This document shows positions 21,200-38,017 of a stretch of 64,000 bases of DNA, in pieces. Where the stretch lies: the NCBI GenBank assembly GCA_900109895.1, contig FOBR01000005.1, positions 124,001-188,000 on the forward strand, given 5' to 3'. Under the pieces are notes generated by a model. That model had not been told where the DNA came from. It worked only from the letters and a program-made list of their open reading frames with translations, and did not search any database. The stretch is from a bacterium A37T11. Its GTDB lineage: Bacteria > Bacteroidota > Bacteroidia > Sphingobacteriales > Sphingobacteriaceae. The position numbers were made by a program, and so were the translations under genes. Numbering within the stretch: position 1 is the first letter of the stretch; every line of letters starts with the position of its first letter.

Positions 21200-21367
21200 T
21201 AAGCAAAGCTAATTCTTTTTTTAGTTATATTTGCCTGGACATAACATATTTTATTCACCTGCCATCTGCCTGGTGGAGCATGCGTTGCAGATCTGTTTAA
21301 GTGGTTTTGCCAGGTCGCCACCCGTGCCGGGTATACTGCTGTGACGGTGGTTTTAACGTCATTCGTC

Positions 21368-21814
21368 ATGTTAAAACACGTATTGCTCATCATCACCCTC
21401 TTATCTCAGATCTTATCCACCCTAAAAGAATTGCTGTTTTTTGTCAAAGCACTTTGGCGCTGGCTGGAGCCCATGGTAAACCGCATAGACCCCGCCTTGC
21501 TAAACGAACTGATCCACACCCTGCTTGACTACCTGAAGCGCCGGTTGCAAGATAGCCCCGACCAGCAACCCGGCCCCATCGCCGAATACTACGACCAAAA
21601 CGGCACCAAACAACTCTACGACGAGCGCCAGCTGATGACCATCAGCCAAGCCACCCGCCTCCTAAAGATAAGCCGCTTCAAACTCGACGACATGCGCGCC
21701 ACCGGCAAGCTCTGCACCCTCAAAAAAGACCCAAACGACCGCGAAGTACGCCTGCTGCGCAGCGAGGTGGAAGCTGCCCGGGTATGGTACAGCATCCCGA
21801 AGGGGAAGGTGTAG
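21368..21814 (+). CDS. Membrane-anchored protein with an excisionase/MerR-like HTH
   Basis: A 148-residue protein (from ATG 21368; an in-frame ATG at 21341 adds nine residues). The N-terminus is a hydrophobic helix (LLIITLLSQIL, then LKELLFFVKALW). The C-terminal half has an excisionase-type winged helix: LMTISQATRLLKISRFKLDDMRATGKL, then DREVRLLRSEVEAARVW. The pairing of a membrane or amphipathic helix with a DNA-binding domain is odd, and the function is unknown. A TATATTTG element at 21226-21233 could serve it, without a good -33 box. A clear terminator follows at 21823. Confidence 0.65.
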   Translation: MLKHVLLIITLLSQILSTLKELLFFVKALWRWLEPMVNRIDPALLNELIHTLLDYLKRRLQDSPDQQPGPIAEYYDQNGTKQLYDERQLMTISQATRLLKISRFKLDDMRATGKLCTLKKDPNDREVRLLRSEVEAARVWYSIPKGKV

Positions 21815-21822
21815 GGGTAAAA

Positions 21823-21860
21823 AAAACCATCCGCTGGTATACAACGGATGGTTTTGTTTT
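21823..21860 (+). terminator. Intrinsic terminator after the HTH gene
   Basis: AAAACCATCCG (21823-21833) pairs with CGGATGGTTTT (21845-21855), followed by GTTTTAT. It ends the rightward gene 8 bases after its stop. The A-run on the left side lets it work leftward as well. Beyond it, 21861-22029 is AT-rich and holds nothing I can support. Confidence 0.85.
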
Positions 21861-34453: not shown

Positions 34454-34864
34454 ATGCAAAAAAAATGGAAGTCCGCTTATGGCGGAGAACAAGTGGATGA
34501 TGAAATCCCGGTGGTGAGGTTGAAAAACGTACCCCTAAGTTTTTGGCGCTGGCCGGGTTGGACAGAGGTCATCGCGGTAGGGCAGGTGCTACTGTTAGTC
34601 GGGGTATTCATCTACAGCGGGCCAATCTTACGTTGGTTCGACCCAACGGTTGGCGTCTTGGATGCAGGAATTATAAGCAATTGGCTCATGTCCATCGTGC
34701 TGGTCGATTCCTTTGTGGTGTCCGGGTGGCTGCTTATGAGGTTGGTAAGCAAAGTGATTAACTTTAAAAATAATAGCTCATCATGTTTGGAAGAAAAAAT
34801 GATGCTGGGATCTTTCTGGGGATTGGTCTGGATATTTGTGTTTGTTTTTTGGGTTTTGCTTTAA
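34454..34864 (+). CDS. Small three-TM membrane protein (holin-like)
   Basis: A 136-residue protein starting at ATG 34454, preceded by the ribosome-binding-site-like AAAGGAGT. An N-terminal charged region (about 1-32) is followed by three predicted membrane helices at about 38-58, 72-98 and 116-136. The last 82 bases overlap the start of the CHAP-hydrolase gene in another frame, as holin and endolysin genes often do. Size, topology and position suggest a holin. The sequence itself is not one I recognise, so this is inference. Confidence 0.7.
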   Translation: MQKKWKSAYGGEQVDDEIPVVRLKNVPLSFWRWPGWTEVIAVGQVLLLVGVFIYSGPILRWFDPTVGVLDAGIISNWLMSIVLVDSFVVSGWLLMRLVSKVINFKNNSSSCLEEKMMLGSFWGLVWIFVFVFWVLL

Positions 34865-35454
34865 AACAAGCCAGGGTTCCTAAAAAAGCCGTCATTCCGC
34901 TAGCTTCGAGCGCTTCCTTAAAAGTCGGGACAGACAAGATTGCCATCAGACAGAAACTGCAGCAAATCTTCACCGCCGAGATCGGTGTGCAAGAGGCGAC
35001 CGGTAAGAACGATGGCCCGCGAATACAGGAATACCTGCATGCAGTAGGCCTGAAGGGCAACTACTCGTATTGCGCTTCCTTTGTAGCGTGGACGTTTCAA
35101 CAAGCTGGTCTGAACGGACCGAGAACGGGATGGAGCCCGGCACTGTTCCCTCAGAAAAGGGTGATTTGGGAACGAATACAACAAAAACCGGTAGGCACTA
35201 GTAAGGGACTTATCACGTATAACTTACAACGTACAACTCCCTTATCCGGTGATGTTTTCGGTATCTATTTTTCTGAACTTAAACGTATCGGCCATTGCGG
35301 TTTCGTAGAAGCGTGGGATGTAACGTGGTGCACGACAGTCGAAGCCAACACTGCTAATCCGATCCGTGCCGGCCCATTTTCCGAAGGAGTCTATCGAAAA
35401 AAAAGACTCGTCAAAACAATTTACAAGGTTGCCGACTGGGTGACCTCAAAATAA
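34783..35454 (+). CDS. CHAP-domain peptidoglycan hydrolase with N-terminal anchor
   Basis: A 223-residue protein. An N-terminal hydrophobic stretch (about residues 8-27, AGIFLGIGLDICVCFLGFAL) could be a signal-anchor. The CHAP amidase/endopeptidase fold follows: catalytic Cys in YSYCASFVAWTFQQAGL, a GDVFGIYF strand, His in RIGHCGFVEAW, and the polar third residue in TVEANT. It is expected to cut peptidoglycan in the periplasm. The segment LITYNLQRTTPLS (35208-35245) looks like a translated dispersed repeat before the catalytic GDVFG strand. It overlaps the holin-like gene, and a fibronectin-III protein gene follows after 31 bases. Confidence 0.85.
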   Translation: MFGRKNDAGIFLGIGLDICVCFLGFALKQARVPKKAVIPLASSASLKVGTDKIAIRQKLQQIFTAEIGVQEATGKNDGPRIQEYLHAVGLKGNYSYCASFVAWTFQQAGLNGPRTGWSPALFPQKRVIWERIQQKPVGTSKGLITYNLQRTTPLSGDVFGIYFSELKRIGHCGFVEAWDVTWCTTVEANTANPIRAGPFSEGVYRKKRLVKTIYKVADWVTSK

Positions 35455-35485
35455 GGATAAGCACAACTACACAATATCAAATAAA

Positions 35486-36121
35486 ATGAGAAAAAATAAA
35501 GTATTACTGTACTACGGGTACATGAAAGATGATGAGCTGGCTACGTTGTCAGGCTCAGTGAATGCAGCGATGACGGCTGCGGCAACAATATTCACCGAAC
35601 CAAAGCCCACGCTGGAGGAATTCGGCGCACTGGTAACCGATTTCAGGACCAAACTACAGGATGCCAGGCCAGGAGGCAGTACGCTGCAAAACAGCCTGAA
35701 GGACGATGCGCGGGATATCTTGCTGGAATCCATGAAGCAGCTGGCCTTTTACGTCAATACCGTTGCCGACGGAGACATGACGACCTTACTAAGTTCAGGA
35801 TTTATCCTGGTAACGCAGCCAAAGTCCAAAAAAGTACCTGGTGTGGTAATTGGGTTGAAGCTGCGCGATGGCTTACAGAGTGGCCAGATGAAGGTAGATT
35901 TTGAACCGGTGGCCGGAGCCACTGATTACATCTACGCATTGAGCAGCAGCCTGGGAGAAGATGGCATGTCGGTGTGGGAGCATGAGTACAGTACGTCCAG
36001 TTCTCGTGGCAACGTGATCGGATCGCTCTTCCCCGGCACGGTATACCGCGTACGGGCCAGGGCCCGCAACAACCGCGGCCTGGGAGACTGGAGTGAAGTA
36101 GTCTCTTTAATGGTTAGGTAA
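35486..36121 (+). CDS. Fibronectin type III domain protein
   Basis: A 211-residue protein without a signal peptide. The N-terminal half (about 1-105) is mainly helical (DDELATLSGSVNAAMTAAA; DDARDILLESMKQLAFYV). The C-terminal half (about 112-211) is one fibronectin-III domain ending TVYRVRARARNNRGLGDWSEVVSL. Proteins of this architecture and length are common in Bacteroidota and have no known role. The fn3 fold suggests binding to another protein or a polymer. It lies between the CHAP hydrolase and the spanin-like lipoprotein. Confidence 0.8.
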   Translation: MRKNKVLLYYGYMKDDELATLSGSVNAAMTAAATIFTEPKPTLEEFGALVTDFRTKLQDARPGGSTLQNSLKDDARDILLESMKQLAFYVNTVADGDMTTLLSSGFILVTQPKSKKVPGVVIGLKLRDGLQSGQMKVDFEPVAGATDYIYALSSSLGEDGMSVWEHEYSTSSSRGNVIGSLFPGTVYRVRARARNNRGLGDWSEVVSLMVR

Positions 36122-36126
36122 TTAAG

Positions 36127-36198
36127 TTTAAAATGGGGCTTTGGGGATGGTATCCTTGGCTGCGCAGCAGGCTCGGCACCAGACCGGAAGTTCCATTT
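36127..36198. repeat. Copy B of a TTTAAAATGG-type dispersed repeat
   Basis: It shares TTTAAAATGG, GCTTTGGG, CCTTGGCTGCG and AGCAGGCT with the segment at 22030-22072. The ends AAAATGG and CCATTTT (36193 area) are inverted, and GCTGCGCAGC in the middle is a palindrome, so the element can fold. It lies between the fn3 and lipoprotein genes. Confidence 0.6.
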
Positions 36199-36223
36199 TA
36201 GAAATGAACCAAAAAATAATTAA

Positions 36224-36724
36224 ATGAACAAAATCATGAAACACATAATAACCCTTATAGGACTCCTTTTAACAATGTCTTGCTCGGTTTTTAAACACAA
36301 GATTGAAAACAACAGTAGCCGTACCCACCTAACGGTGCACAGTGTACAACGAAAAGACAGTTTACAGATAACAGCGCAAACCCAGCATATCAGGTACCTG
36401 TCTGATGATCAGCTGGAGATCACCGAAATAGTCCCGGAAGGAACATTTAGCTATCATCCCGATTCTGGTTTTCAGGGAGAAGCCTTCAGCGTGCACATAT
36501 ATCGCCAGCATCAGCAGCGAACCATTGACCGGGATACTACAACCTTAAGTAATACAGGCACCCGTTTAAAAAGCAAGGTGGATAGCACGGTTCAGACAGA
36601 AACCCATCATCAGTTGGAAGAAACAAAGAAATCAAAACCCATTAGCATTTGGGGCTACCTGGGTGTGGCTGTGATGTTAGGGCTGATTTATTTTTATTTT
36701 TATGGCCTTAAAAAAGGGAGTTAA
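36224..36724 (+). CDS. Lipoprotein with C-terminal membrane helix (unimolecular spanin-like)
   Basis: A 166-residue protein with N-terminal lipobox TMSC (Cys20; an internal ATG at 36236 gives a shorter signal peptide). The polar periplasmic part is about 120 residues, rich in His/Gln/Thr. One strong C-terminal membrane helix (about 143-162, GYLGVAVMLGLIYFYFYGL) is followed by KKGS. Lipid anchor in the outer membrane plus a helix in the inner membrane is the layout of unimolecular spanins, which fuse the two membranes at the end of phage lysis. Gene order after a holin-like and a hydrolase gene supports this. No sequence homology is claimed. Confidence 0.65.
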   Translation: MNKIMKHIITLIGLLLTMSCSVFKHKIENNSSRTHLTVHSVQRKDSLQITAQTQHIRYLSDDQLEITEIVPEGTFSYHPDSGFQGEAFSVHIYRQHQQRTIDRDTTTLSNTGTRLKSKVDSTVQTETHHQLEETKKSKPISIWGYLGVAVMLGLIYFYFYGLKKGS

Positions 36725-36726
36725 TT

Positions 36727-36828
36727 CTAGGAGCTGGATTCTGACCAGGCTGATCGTGGCCCGGGTCTTCATTTTGTTCCAGACCCTAATCGCCACTCCT
36801 CAGCCCGGCCAGAATCAAGTAATAAGAG
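36727..36828. repeat. 102-bp direct repeat, copy 1, with nested hairpin
   Basis: It is almost identical to 37868-37969 (differences at the fifth base, one loop base and near the right end). Bases 36737-36816 form a nested imperfect hairpin: GATTCTG, GGCTG, GTGGC and GGGTCT on the left pair in order with AGACCC, GCCAC, CAGCC and CAGAATC on the right. Small internal loops separate the paired blocks and there is a 12-base end loop. The repeat begins two bases after the lipoprotein stop and ends 7 bases before the end of the nuclease gene. Confidence 0.9.
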
Positions 36829-36835
36829 TCAAATA

Positions 36836-37792
36836 TTACCCGATTTCTTCCGGATTTAAACCCGTATAGGCAGCAACCTTTTGTAGGGGCTCTCCGGCTT
36901 TCAGCAGGATTTGGGCTATTTGATGTAAGGTGACTTCGGCAATGTCTAATACATCATCCACGGTAAGGCCTTTTTGGTAAGATTTTAAAACAATACTTGA
37001 TGTTTTTTCTACTTTCCCTTCTTCCCGTCCAATTTCCTTCCCTTTAATAATCCCGTTGTCTTCTCCAGTTATATATGCTGTTTCATATTCACTTTCTGAA
37101 ATACGCCAGTAATGAAGAAATTGTTCAAATTCCCTTCGTTCTTGATCGCTTAGTTTTAATATGTTCAGCTCTTCTTTGGCTTTTTGGATGCCCTTTGCGC
37201 TAAACTCGTCTTTGACCTCGCTGTTTTTCAGAAAGTAGATCCATTCATCCAGTGTGTCCTTGGCCACATCGTCAAAGTTGTTTACTTTGATGATGTAATA
37301 TTCTGGGAAGATGTTGTTGGTTTCTTCAACTTTATATAGCTCTTTTTGCTTTTGGGTAAGCTCTAGTTGCTGGCCATTGTGCAGACCTCTGAATATCGTG
37401 CCTCCTTTATAGACGTAATCATCCCCGTGCCCCAAGTCAAAATAAAGGATGTTGATGGAGATAATACGTTTGATGACCCCATAGCGCTCTCCCTGGTCTA
37501 TATCTTGTTTGACGATGCTGGAAGTAGCATAAAGCATCCGTTGGAAGTAATCAAACTCGCTGTTCTGCTGTATTTCAATGATGATATACTCGCCTTTGGT
37601 ATTTTTGACCAAAATGTCAACCCGGTTTTGCTTTCCAGTGGGGGTGTCTTTATTGCTCTCGCTTTCCAGCACCTCCTGTATCTTAATATCTTCCTTTAAT
37701 AGCTCAGACAGGAACCCTTCCAGGATCACAAAATTGGCCTTGTTGCGCAGTAAACGCTTAATGGCCCAGTCAAAACGTACTAAATTACCCAT
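36836..37792 (-). CDS. Rpn/PDDEXK-family nuclease (recombination-promoting nuclease, putative transposase type)
   Basis: A 318-residue protein of the PD-(D/E)XK family that includes RpnA. The active-site core is visible: D59 in NRVDILVKN and E73-I-Q75 in YIIIEIQQ. The N-terminal FDWAIKRLLRNKANF segment is the family hallmark. The C-terminal third is helical and repetitive (EIGREEGKVEK; IAQILLKAGEP). RpnA-type enzymes cut DNA and stimulate RecA-independent recombination; some are called putative transposases. The gene is bracketed by two 102-bp hairpin repeats. Codon use is AT-rich compared with the prp genes to its right. Its TATCTTTG (37811-37818, leftward) lacks a good -33 box. Confidence 0.9.
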   Translation of the reverse strand: MGNLVRFDWAIKRLLRNKANFVILEGFLSELLKEDIKIQEVLESESNKDTPTGKQNRVDILVKNTKGEYIIIEIQQNSEFDYFQRMLYATSSIVKQDIDQGERYGVIKRIISINILYFDLGHGDDYVYKGGTIFRGLHNGQQLELTQKQKELYKVEETNNIFPEYYIIKVNNFDDVAKDTLDEWIYFLKNSEVKDEFSAKGIQKAKEELNILKLSDQERREFEQFLHYWRISESEYETAYITGEDNGIIKGKEIGREEGKVEKTSSIVLKSYQKGLTVDDVLDIAEVTLHQIAQILLKAGEPLQKVAAYTGLNPEEIG

Positions 37793-37867
37793 ATCAATAA
37801 ACTATACAGGCAAAGATAAGGAATTCGGGTGAATAGAATGAATAGATGGCATTCAATATATTGCTGA

Positions 37868-37969
37868 CTAGGGGCTGGATTCTGACCAGGCTGATCGTGG
37901 CCCGGGTCTTCACTTTGTTCCAGACCCTAATCGCCACTCCTCAGCCCGGCCAGAATCAAGTAATAATAG
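37868..37969. repeat. 102-bp direct repeat, copy 2, with nested hairpin
   Basis: Same orientation as copy 1, 1141 bases to its right and 76 bases upstream of the nuclease start codon. The nested hairpin is fully conserved. The one internal difference (T in copy 1, C in copy 2) falls in the end loop, as expected if the folded form is what matters. Confidence 0.9.
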
Positions 37970-38017
37970 CTCAAACGCTTTATTATTTTGTGGTGACTAA
38001 CTCGGACACAAAAAGTA

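Follow-up and report, generated by a model that had tools for sequence, protein, structure and literature searches.

We analysed a window of 64,000 nucleotides from bacterium A37T11 (Sphingobacteriaceae; contig FOBR01000005.1, positions 124,001 to 188,000), in which an Rpn-type PD-(D/E)XK nuclease gene, flanked by two copies of a hairpin-forming repeat, lies on the minus strand at 36836..37792 and encodes 318 amino acids. Rpn-type nucleases (YhgA-like, COG5464) are intragenic toxin-antitoxin or anti-phage proteins that spread horizontally. The protein matches PF12784 (E 8.6e-24; 85 bits, curated cut-off 27.4) and TIGR01784 (98.2 bits, cut-off 52.1), and a pattern search located a D...ExQ stretch from residue 59, whose role in this protein we presume. 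Looking among five codons for an internal start from which a separate C-terminal antitoxin (RpnS) might be translated, we found in-frame ATG and TTG absent beyond residue 167, GTG at residues 176 and 278, and ATT and CTG codons present. The left repeat copy, w1, spans 36727..36833 (hairpin core 36739-36815) and the right copy, w2, 37868..37975 (hairpin core 37880-37956), both assigned to the minus strand, on which they fold better. The original prediction that two same-strand copies of 102 bp flank the Rpn-type gene within about 75 bases was borne out: these copies (36727-36828 and 37868-37969) are 97% identical, lie 1141 bp apart from start to start and are separated from the open reading frame (ORF) by 7 bases on the left and 75 on the right; when indels are allowed, the pair extends over 36727-36833 and 37868-37975, with 96.3% identity in 108 columns.

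Copy w1 occupies the gap between the stop codons of rpn and of a small ORF to its left, which looks lipoprotein-like by eye and has no Pfam match, and w2 separates rpn from a citrate synthase gene (PF00285). The two copies are 98.7% identical within the hairpin, at most 94.9% identical to any other full copy, and have about 30 bp in common outside the hairpin. The hairpin has no copy in 400 kb of control sequence from this genome (twenty stretches of 20 kb, picked by hand away from contig ends), so the repeat pair goes beyond chance.

Folding as DNA confirmed the multi-block nested hairpin in both window copies, with -24.2 kcal/mol on the minus strand (z -5.4 and -4.2) and a weaker fold of -19 kcal/mol on the plus strand (z -3.3 and -2.6). 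The difference between the copies, which had been placed in the loop, lies there for one of the three mismatches; the other two are in the flanks outside the hairpin. In the family formed by these copies and their matches elsewhere in the genome (the first family), the outer stem is variable and the inner loops are constant. The compensating changes that were to be looked for did appear, as sequence changes in this family keep the pairing: across its seven full copies the proportion of pair cells that hold a pair is 96.3%, and four pairs have changed on both sides, as against 0 to 2 in slid controls, with shuffles reaching four in 34 of 500. In its number of pair types the family does not stand out (262 of 500 shuffles). 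Because quasi-palindrome correction during replication could likewise maintain stem pairing, the kept pairing is no proof of selection.

The search of the whole genome (5.09 Mb in 60 contigs; assembly 97.5% complete) returned twelve first-family matches at ten loci, several of them near Rpn genes; in the sampled relatives, treated below, the repeat was not found. Sites and loci were grouped by hand. Full copies occur in the window (two) and at loci C27 (two), C17 and C7, with a divergent full copy at C36; C47, C24 and C11 carry short derivatives with the look of deletions between CCGGGC repeats inside the sequence, and C12 and C31 carry halves. Solo hairpins, enclosing no gene, are also present. 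A second hairpin family is unlike the first in sequence and yet built to a similar plan, with some 14 bp of terminal inverted repeat, an internal loop of small size, a stem of 5 bp, a 5' bulge and, innermost, a further stem. It has a short form of about 78 nt and a long form of about 120 nt, and accounts for 37 matches in 19 sites at 14 loci. Searches of the genome with either family did not find the other, and a common origin of the two is only a guess. The second family shows only weak covariation (4 of 41 pairs, covariation term +0.33). Its 120-nt form (L182 3259-3378, L177 3619-3899, L176 1978-2097) has conserved internal loops, reaches a fold z of -10.7 and is without an Rfam match. Like the first family, the second is absent from the control stretches. 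In the 22-bp flanks of ten first-family and twenty second-family copies no target-site duplication was seen by eye, the element ends being uncertain.

Within this genome the hairpins are associated with nuclease-type genes. PF12784 has ten matches at seven loci, and a hairpin of either family lies within 500 bp of eight of these matches and six of the seven loci, one of the eight through a 31-bp half copy; the remaining locus, C31, has a match carrying a stop codon and its nearest half hairpin about 2.3 kb away. Counted from the hairpins, with some of the gene queries coming from the hairpin loci themselves, 12 of 24 loci (five of ten for the first family and seven of 14 for the second, or ten of its 19 sites) have, no more than 500 bp away, a gene of one of four kinds, namely Rpn, YhgA-like Rpn (PF04754), AAA-ATPase_like/PDDEXK_9 and what we call cytosolic-type. 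The last kind (C8, C12, C17) has no significant Pfam match, one member reaching PF04754 at E 0.08, and in a profile comparison with Rpn the C-terminal tail alone aligns, with a probability of 5.8. As the cytosolic-type genes are not shown to be PD-(D/E)XK nucleases, we also give a strict count, without them and one AAA-type fragment, of 9 of 24 hairpin loci. None of the four gene kinds occurs in the control stretches and, taking the upper bound on gene density that these allow, P is about 1e-15 for the loose and 1e-10 for the strict count, rough values for loci that are not independent. With the strict count the conclusion is unchanged.

Other genes recur beside the hairpins as well: XRE-type genes, CHAP/fn3-like/lipoprotein-like genes, a HepT/MntA-like pair that scores under the curated cut-offs, and one gene that we take to be GNAT-like. 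The XRE-type helix-turn-helix family is found near hairpins at L020 2269-2805, L173 4333-4845, L025 3244-3771, L042 3636-4166, L043 1613-1876 and L044 1242-1508, and at C17 such a gene is twice convergent with a cytosolic-type gene, of which it is a possible partner. The CHAP/fn3-like/lipoprotein-like module recurs whole or in part (window 34783-36724; L181, L177, L184). In addition, a terminator-like, A/T-flanked palindrome of 36-38 bp is conserved 3' of several Rpn-/cytosolic-type genes (L018 2951-2986, L184 3975-4010, L020 2839-2874, L025 3902-3935) and not of the rpn of the window, whose own copy of it (21819-21859) lies just past an unrelated ORF (21341-21814).

Brackets like that of the window occur at five further loci, enclosing a truncated rpn at C27, a YhgA-like Rpn gene at C11, cytosolic-type genes at C8 and C12, and a cytosolic-type together with an AAA/PDDEXK_9 gene at C13. 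At C27 rpn and its hairpin are duplicated in tandem, in the order hairpin, truncated rpn, hairpin, rpn, the second rpn being the one without its N-terminal half; the bracket homology there is 107 bp, about 30 bp of it beyond the hairpin. The homology amounts to 200 bp at C11 and to 308 bp in all at C12, where it takes in part of a neighbouring gene, presumably DUF5675-like. Of the ten nuclease-/cytosolic-type genes at ten loci of the genome, seven have direct repeats (40 bp or longer) in the 600 bp to either side, against one of 35 other genes at the same loci and none of 249 in the control stretches. C-terminal-only Rpn copies standing beside a full copy (L018 4527-4949; L183 5211-5699) resemble free-standing RpnS antitoxins. 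As to orientation, hairpins are found on both sides of genes, and neighbouring hairpins are co-oriented, by their better match, in all nine mapped multi-copy loci. The strand of the second family is opposite to that of the adjacent Rpn-/cytosolic-type gene in 11 of 11 cases (a hand count in which one gene lies 1.1 kb away and many cases are related by duplication); in the window the polarity is reversed, as it is for two of the three AAA/PDDEXK_9-type genes.

Among 151 genomes searched, the first hairpin family was confined to A37T11, whose genus was sampled by one genome. The second family, searched as a model of its long form with strict filters, was likewise confined to it among 399 genomes; this survey scored at most eight candidates per genome and returned eight sites in A37T11 itself against at least ten known long copies, so that weak copies elsewhere may be missed. 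The hairpin was unmatched in phages, its exact 19-base core matched no viral contig and one genome contig, within a coding gene and with no hairpin by eye (the collection may omit the genome of the window or very near ones), and a weak, partial match to a Paracoccus plasmid (E 5e-3) was judged to be chance. PF12784 genes are present in 50 of 201 genomes of the family (E 1e-20). For the hairpin and direct-repeat tests in relatives we took 70 loci, the 30 best matches and 40 hand-picked among the matches listed, with the Rpn-like class defined by tblastn with 12 queries that included other gene types. A general link between hairpins and Rpn genes did not hold there: perfect 12-bp-arm hairpins within 250 bp occur upstream of 5/71 Rpn-like against 7/140 control genes and downstream of 13/71 against 15/143, and hairpins with 14-bp arms and one mismatch upstream of 7/71 against 9/140 and downstream of 14/71 against 19/143, none of the differences being significant. 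In contrast, direct repeats of at least 40 bp flank both sides of 9 of 69 Rpn-like genes and 0 of 96 others (Fisher P 3e-4). This test excluded any gene with under 600 bp of sequence on one side or the other; the nine positives are spread over eight loci, there is one inverted case besides, and L142 falls outside the count because its repeat extends past 600 bp. G030 has palindromes and the end of a glmS-like gene (SIS and GATase domains) in duplicate, one set on either side of an Rpn gene, which adjoins a truncated second rpn. Nine loci of the nearest relatives of the window gene stood outside both tests, and three of them (L064, L065, L067) are flanked by direct repeats of 28-44 bp. A search for an empty site in genus g19, beside what we take to be an aspartokinase gene, gave no clean comparison: rpn is present there in 3 of 18 genomes, and these differ from the remaining 15 in the adjoining gene as well. 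In genera g4 and g16, a hairpin of 35-39 bp lies some 30-42 bp upstream of the rpn ORF (L126 1346-1382, L127 1379-1417, L128 1383-1417, L132 2274-2312), with arms that differ by matching changes.

Taken together, these results lead us to an explanation to which we give roughly an even chance, namely that genome-specific hairpins resembling repetitive extragenic palindromic (REP) sequences or miniature inverted-repeat transposable elements (MITEs) sit at sites that duplicate readily and at which Rpn genes are copied, cut short and lost. The hairpins would be copies of an interspersed, non-autonomous palindromic repeat, particular to this genome and REP/MITE-like in behaviour; the pair in the window would most likely have arisen when a site of about 107 bp containing the hairpin was duplicated along with the arrival of the gene or in a segmental duplication. 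Segments bounded by hairpins may then have been duplicated, truncated or lost through recombination between the repeats, the hairpins serving as shared sequence at the segment ends; we infer both the recombination step and its order. Its starting points are direct observations: the copies, their orientation and association, the first-family pairing, the flanks common beyond the hairpin and the C27 tandem with its truncated Rpn gene. Furthermore, the varied direct repeats around Rpn-like genes of relatives point to duplication or recombination and not to fixed ends. The hairpins probably mark spots of gain, duplication and loss of Rpn-type genes, and we read the locus, real and unusual as it is, as a variation on known themes, those of palindromic repeats peculiar to one species and of Rpn loci prone to duplication, rather than as a demonstrated new mobile element.

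Several observations weigh against this explanation. Duplication alone leaves the proximity of hairpins to nuclease-type genes unexplained, and the window repeat starts 2 bp past one stop codon and ends 2 bp short of that of rpn, a neatness not usual in a random duplication. A tblastn search over 12 kb turned up no remnant of a second rpn next to w1 or w2. At C13 the bracket homology stops at the hairpin and at C8 it extends by only about 35 bp, so that independent insertion is possible at these two loci; and the repeats that flank Rpn-like genes in relatives vary in sequence and are mostly not hairpins.

It is also possible, if unlikely, that the bracket is incidental and that MITE/REP-like hairpins accumulate in weakly constrained accessory islands alongside Rpn, helix-turn-helix and toxin-antitoxin genes. 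The XRE-type, CHAP/fn3-like/lipoprotein-like, HepT/MntA-like and presumed GNAT-like neighbours and the confinement of the hairpins to one of the genomes searched are consistent with this, and so is the failure of the Y1_Tnp transposase (PF01797) to match anywhere in the genome at E 0.001, which is expected if a mobiliser has been lost; the co-orientation in nine multi-copy loci, the flanks common beyond the hairpin in four brackets and the lack of visible target-site duplications at ends that are uncertain argue against it. Hairpin MITEs such as ERIC or Correia elements are similarly of some 80-120 bp, intergenic and furnished with terminal inverted repeats, and those of A37T11 differ from them in that same lack of visible duplications and in being tied to one gene kind.

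A cassette based on hairpins, in which units of nuclease gene plus hairpin would excise and insert at the hairpins, through Rpn itself or some recombinase acting on the folded strand, could be accommodated by the association of hairpins with these genes, by their constant orientation and by the second-family polarity. We hold it to be rather unlikely. The existence of two families of similar layout and of solo hairpins agrees with it, as do the co-oriented neighbours and the 11 of 11 second-family cases; the reversed polarity in the window and at two of the three AAA/PDDEXK_9-type genes, and the lack of a hairpin excess beside Rpn-like genes of relatives, do not. The original prediction that the hairpins are the ends of a mobile Rpn unit is supported as regards the link in this genome (six of seven PF12784 loci) and the recurring brackets, and finds no support in that half or more of the hairpin loci lack a nuclease-type gene nearby, so that to call the hairpin the end of an Rpn unit would be too simple. 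Integrons offer a comparison, since genes separated by co-oriented folded repeats with variable stems recall attC sites; here, however, the repeats are not limited to one array, and an attC core site, judged against what we take to be the consensus, was not seen by eye. Of the two PF00589 tyrosine recombinases of the genome, one is XerD (342.4, cut-off 329.6) and the other is best matched by XerC, under its cut-off (279.6 against 335.15); the integrase profile TIGR02249 gave 131.8 and 104.7 against a cut-off of 265. The only tyrosine recombinases found are thus XerD- and XerC-like, which counts against the cassette and led us to reject an integron. The sections of the published analysis used here describe rpn genes as gained and lost singly, with arrays formed by tandem direct duplication, and report no identifiable terminal repeats or defined ends, a further point against the cassette (PMC10327210). 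With known Rpn systems our gene has in common its profile match, a patchy distribution (50 of 201 genomes of the family) and tandem and truncated copies, the last as described in those sections; the differences are the direct hairpin repeats that bracket the gene here and the varied direct repeats that flank 9 of 69 Rpn-like genes of relatives. Hairpin-bracketed Rpn genes were absent from the titles and abstract openings of the open-access literature searched.

REP and BIME repeats together with RAYT transposases form REPtrons. Decidedly improbable, in our estimate, is a pair of this sort in which the Rpn-type PD-(D/E)XK nuclease recognises the folded hairpin and segments of gene plus hairpin move or amplify between hairpins. 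The likeness lies in genome-specific palindromic repeats, solo copies and a DNA-enzyme gene flanked by repeats, and the REP-RAYT system proper was rejected on the missing Y1 match; our repeats are longer (77-124 nt), have conserved internal loops and flank a PD-(D/E)XK enzyme. In the part of the biochemical report relied on, RpnA is described as an endonuclease that shows little or no specificity in vitro, its true target site not being known (PMC5350276).

That the hairpins are structured RNAs or operators regulating the nuclease genes seems very unlikely. They fold stably as RNA (z -5.2 to -10.7 on the presumed structured strand and -3.8 to -8.7 on the other), and the first family has invariant internal loops and covariation; however, the hairpin at L025 has its better z on the strand not taken as structured, second-family covariation is weak, hairpins lie on both gene sides and either strand, and they were not found in the rpn-carrying relatives sampled. 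At the window copies Rfam yielded nothing even at E 1 and, at six other loci, one match far under the gathering score and away from the hairpins. Ordinary bidirectional terminators, which would suit the five copies whose start is no more than 25 bp from a stop codon (w1, C27, C17, C7, C47), are the least likely reading, as a T-run after the stem is absent, a terminator scan calls none at the window copies and several Rpn-/cytosolic-type genes elsewhere own the separate 3' A/T-flanked palindrome.

In the sections of the published analysis cited, rpn genes spread with mobile-like behaviour and without known ends (PMC10327210). The hairpin brackets of A37T11 and the excess of direct repeats around Rpn-like genes provide concrete sites at which to seek circles, junctions and nuclease cleavage. 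If recombination alone is at work, these loci show how rpn genes get duplicated and pruned into antitoxin-like remnants; if a REPtron-like pairing of nuclease and hairpin were true, it would account for the gain and loss of rpn genes that have no classical ends.
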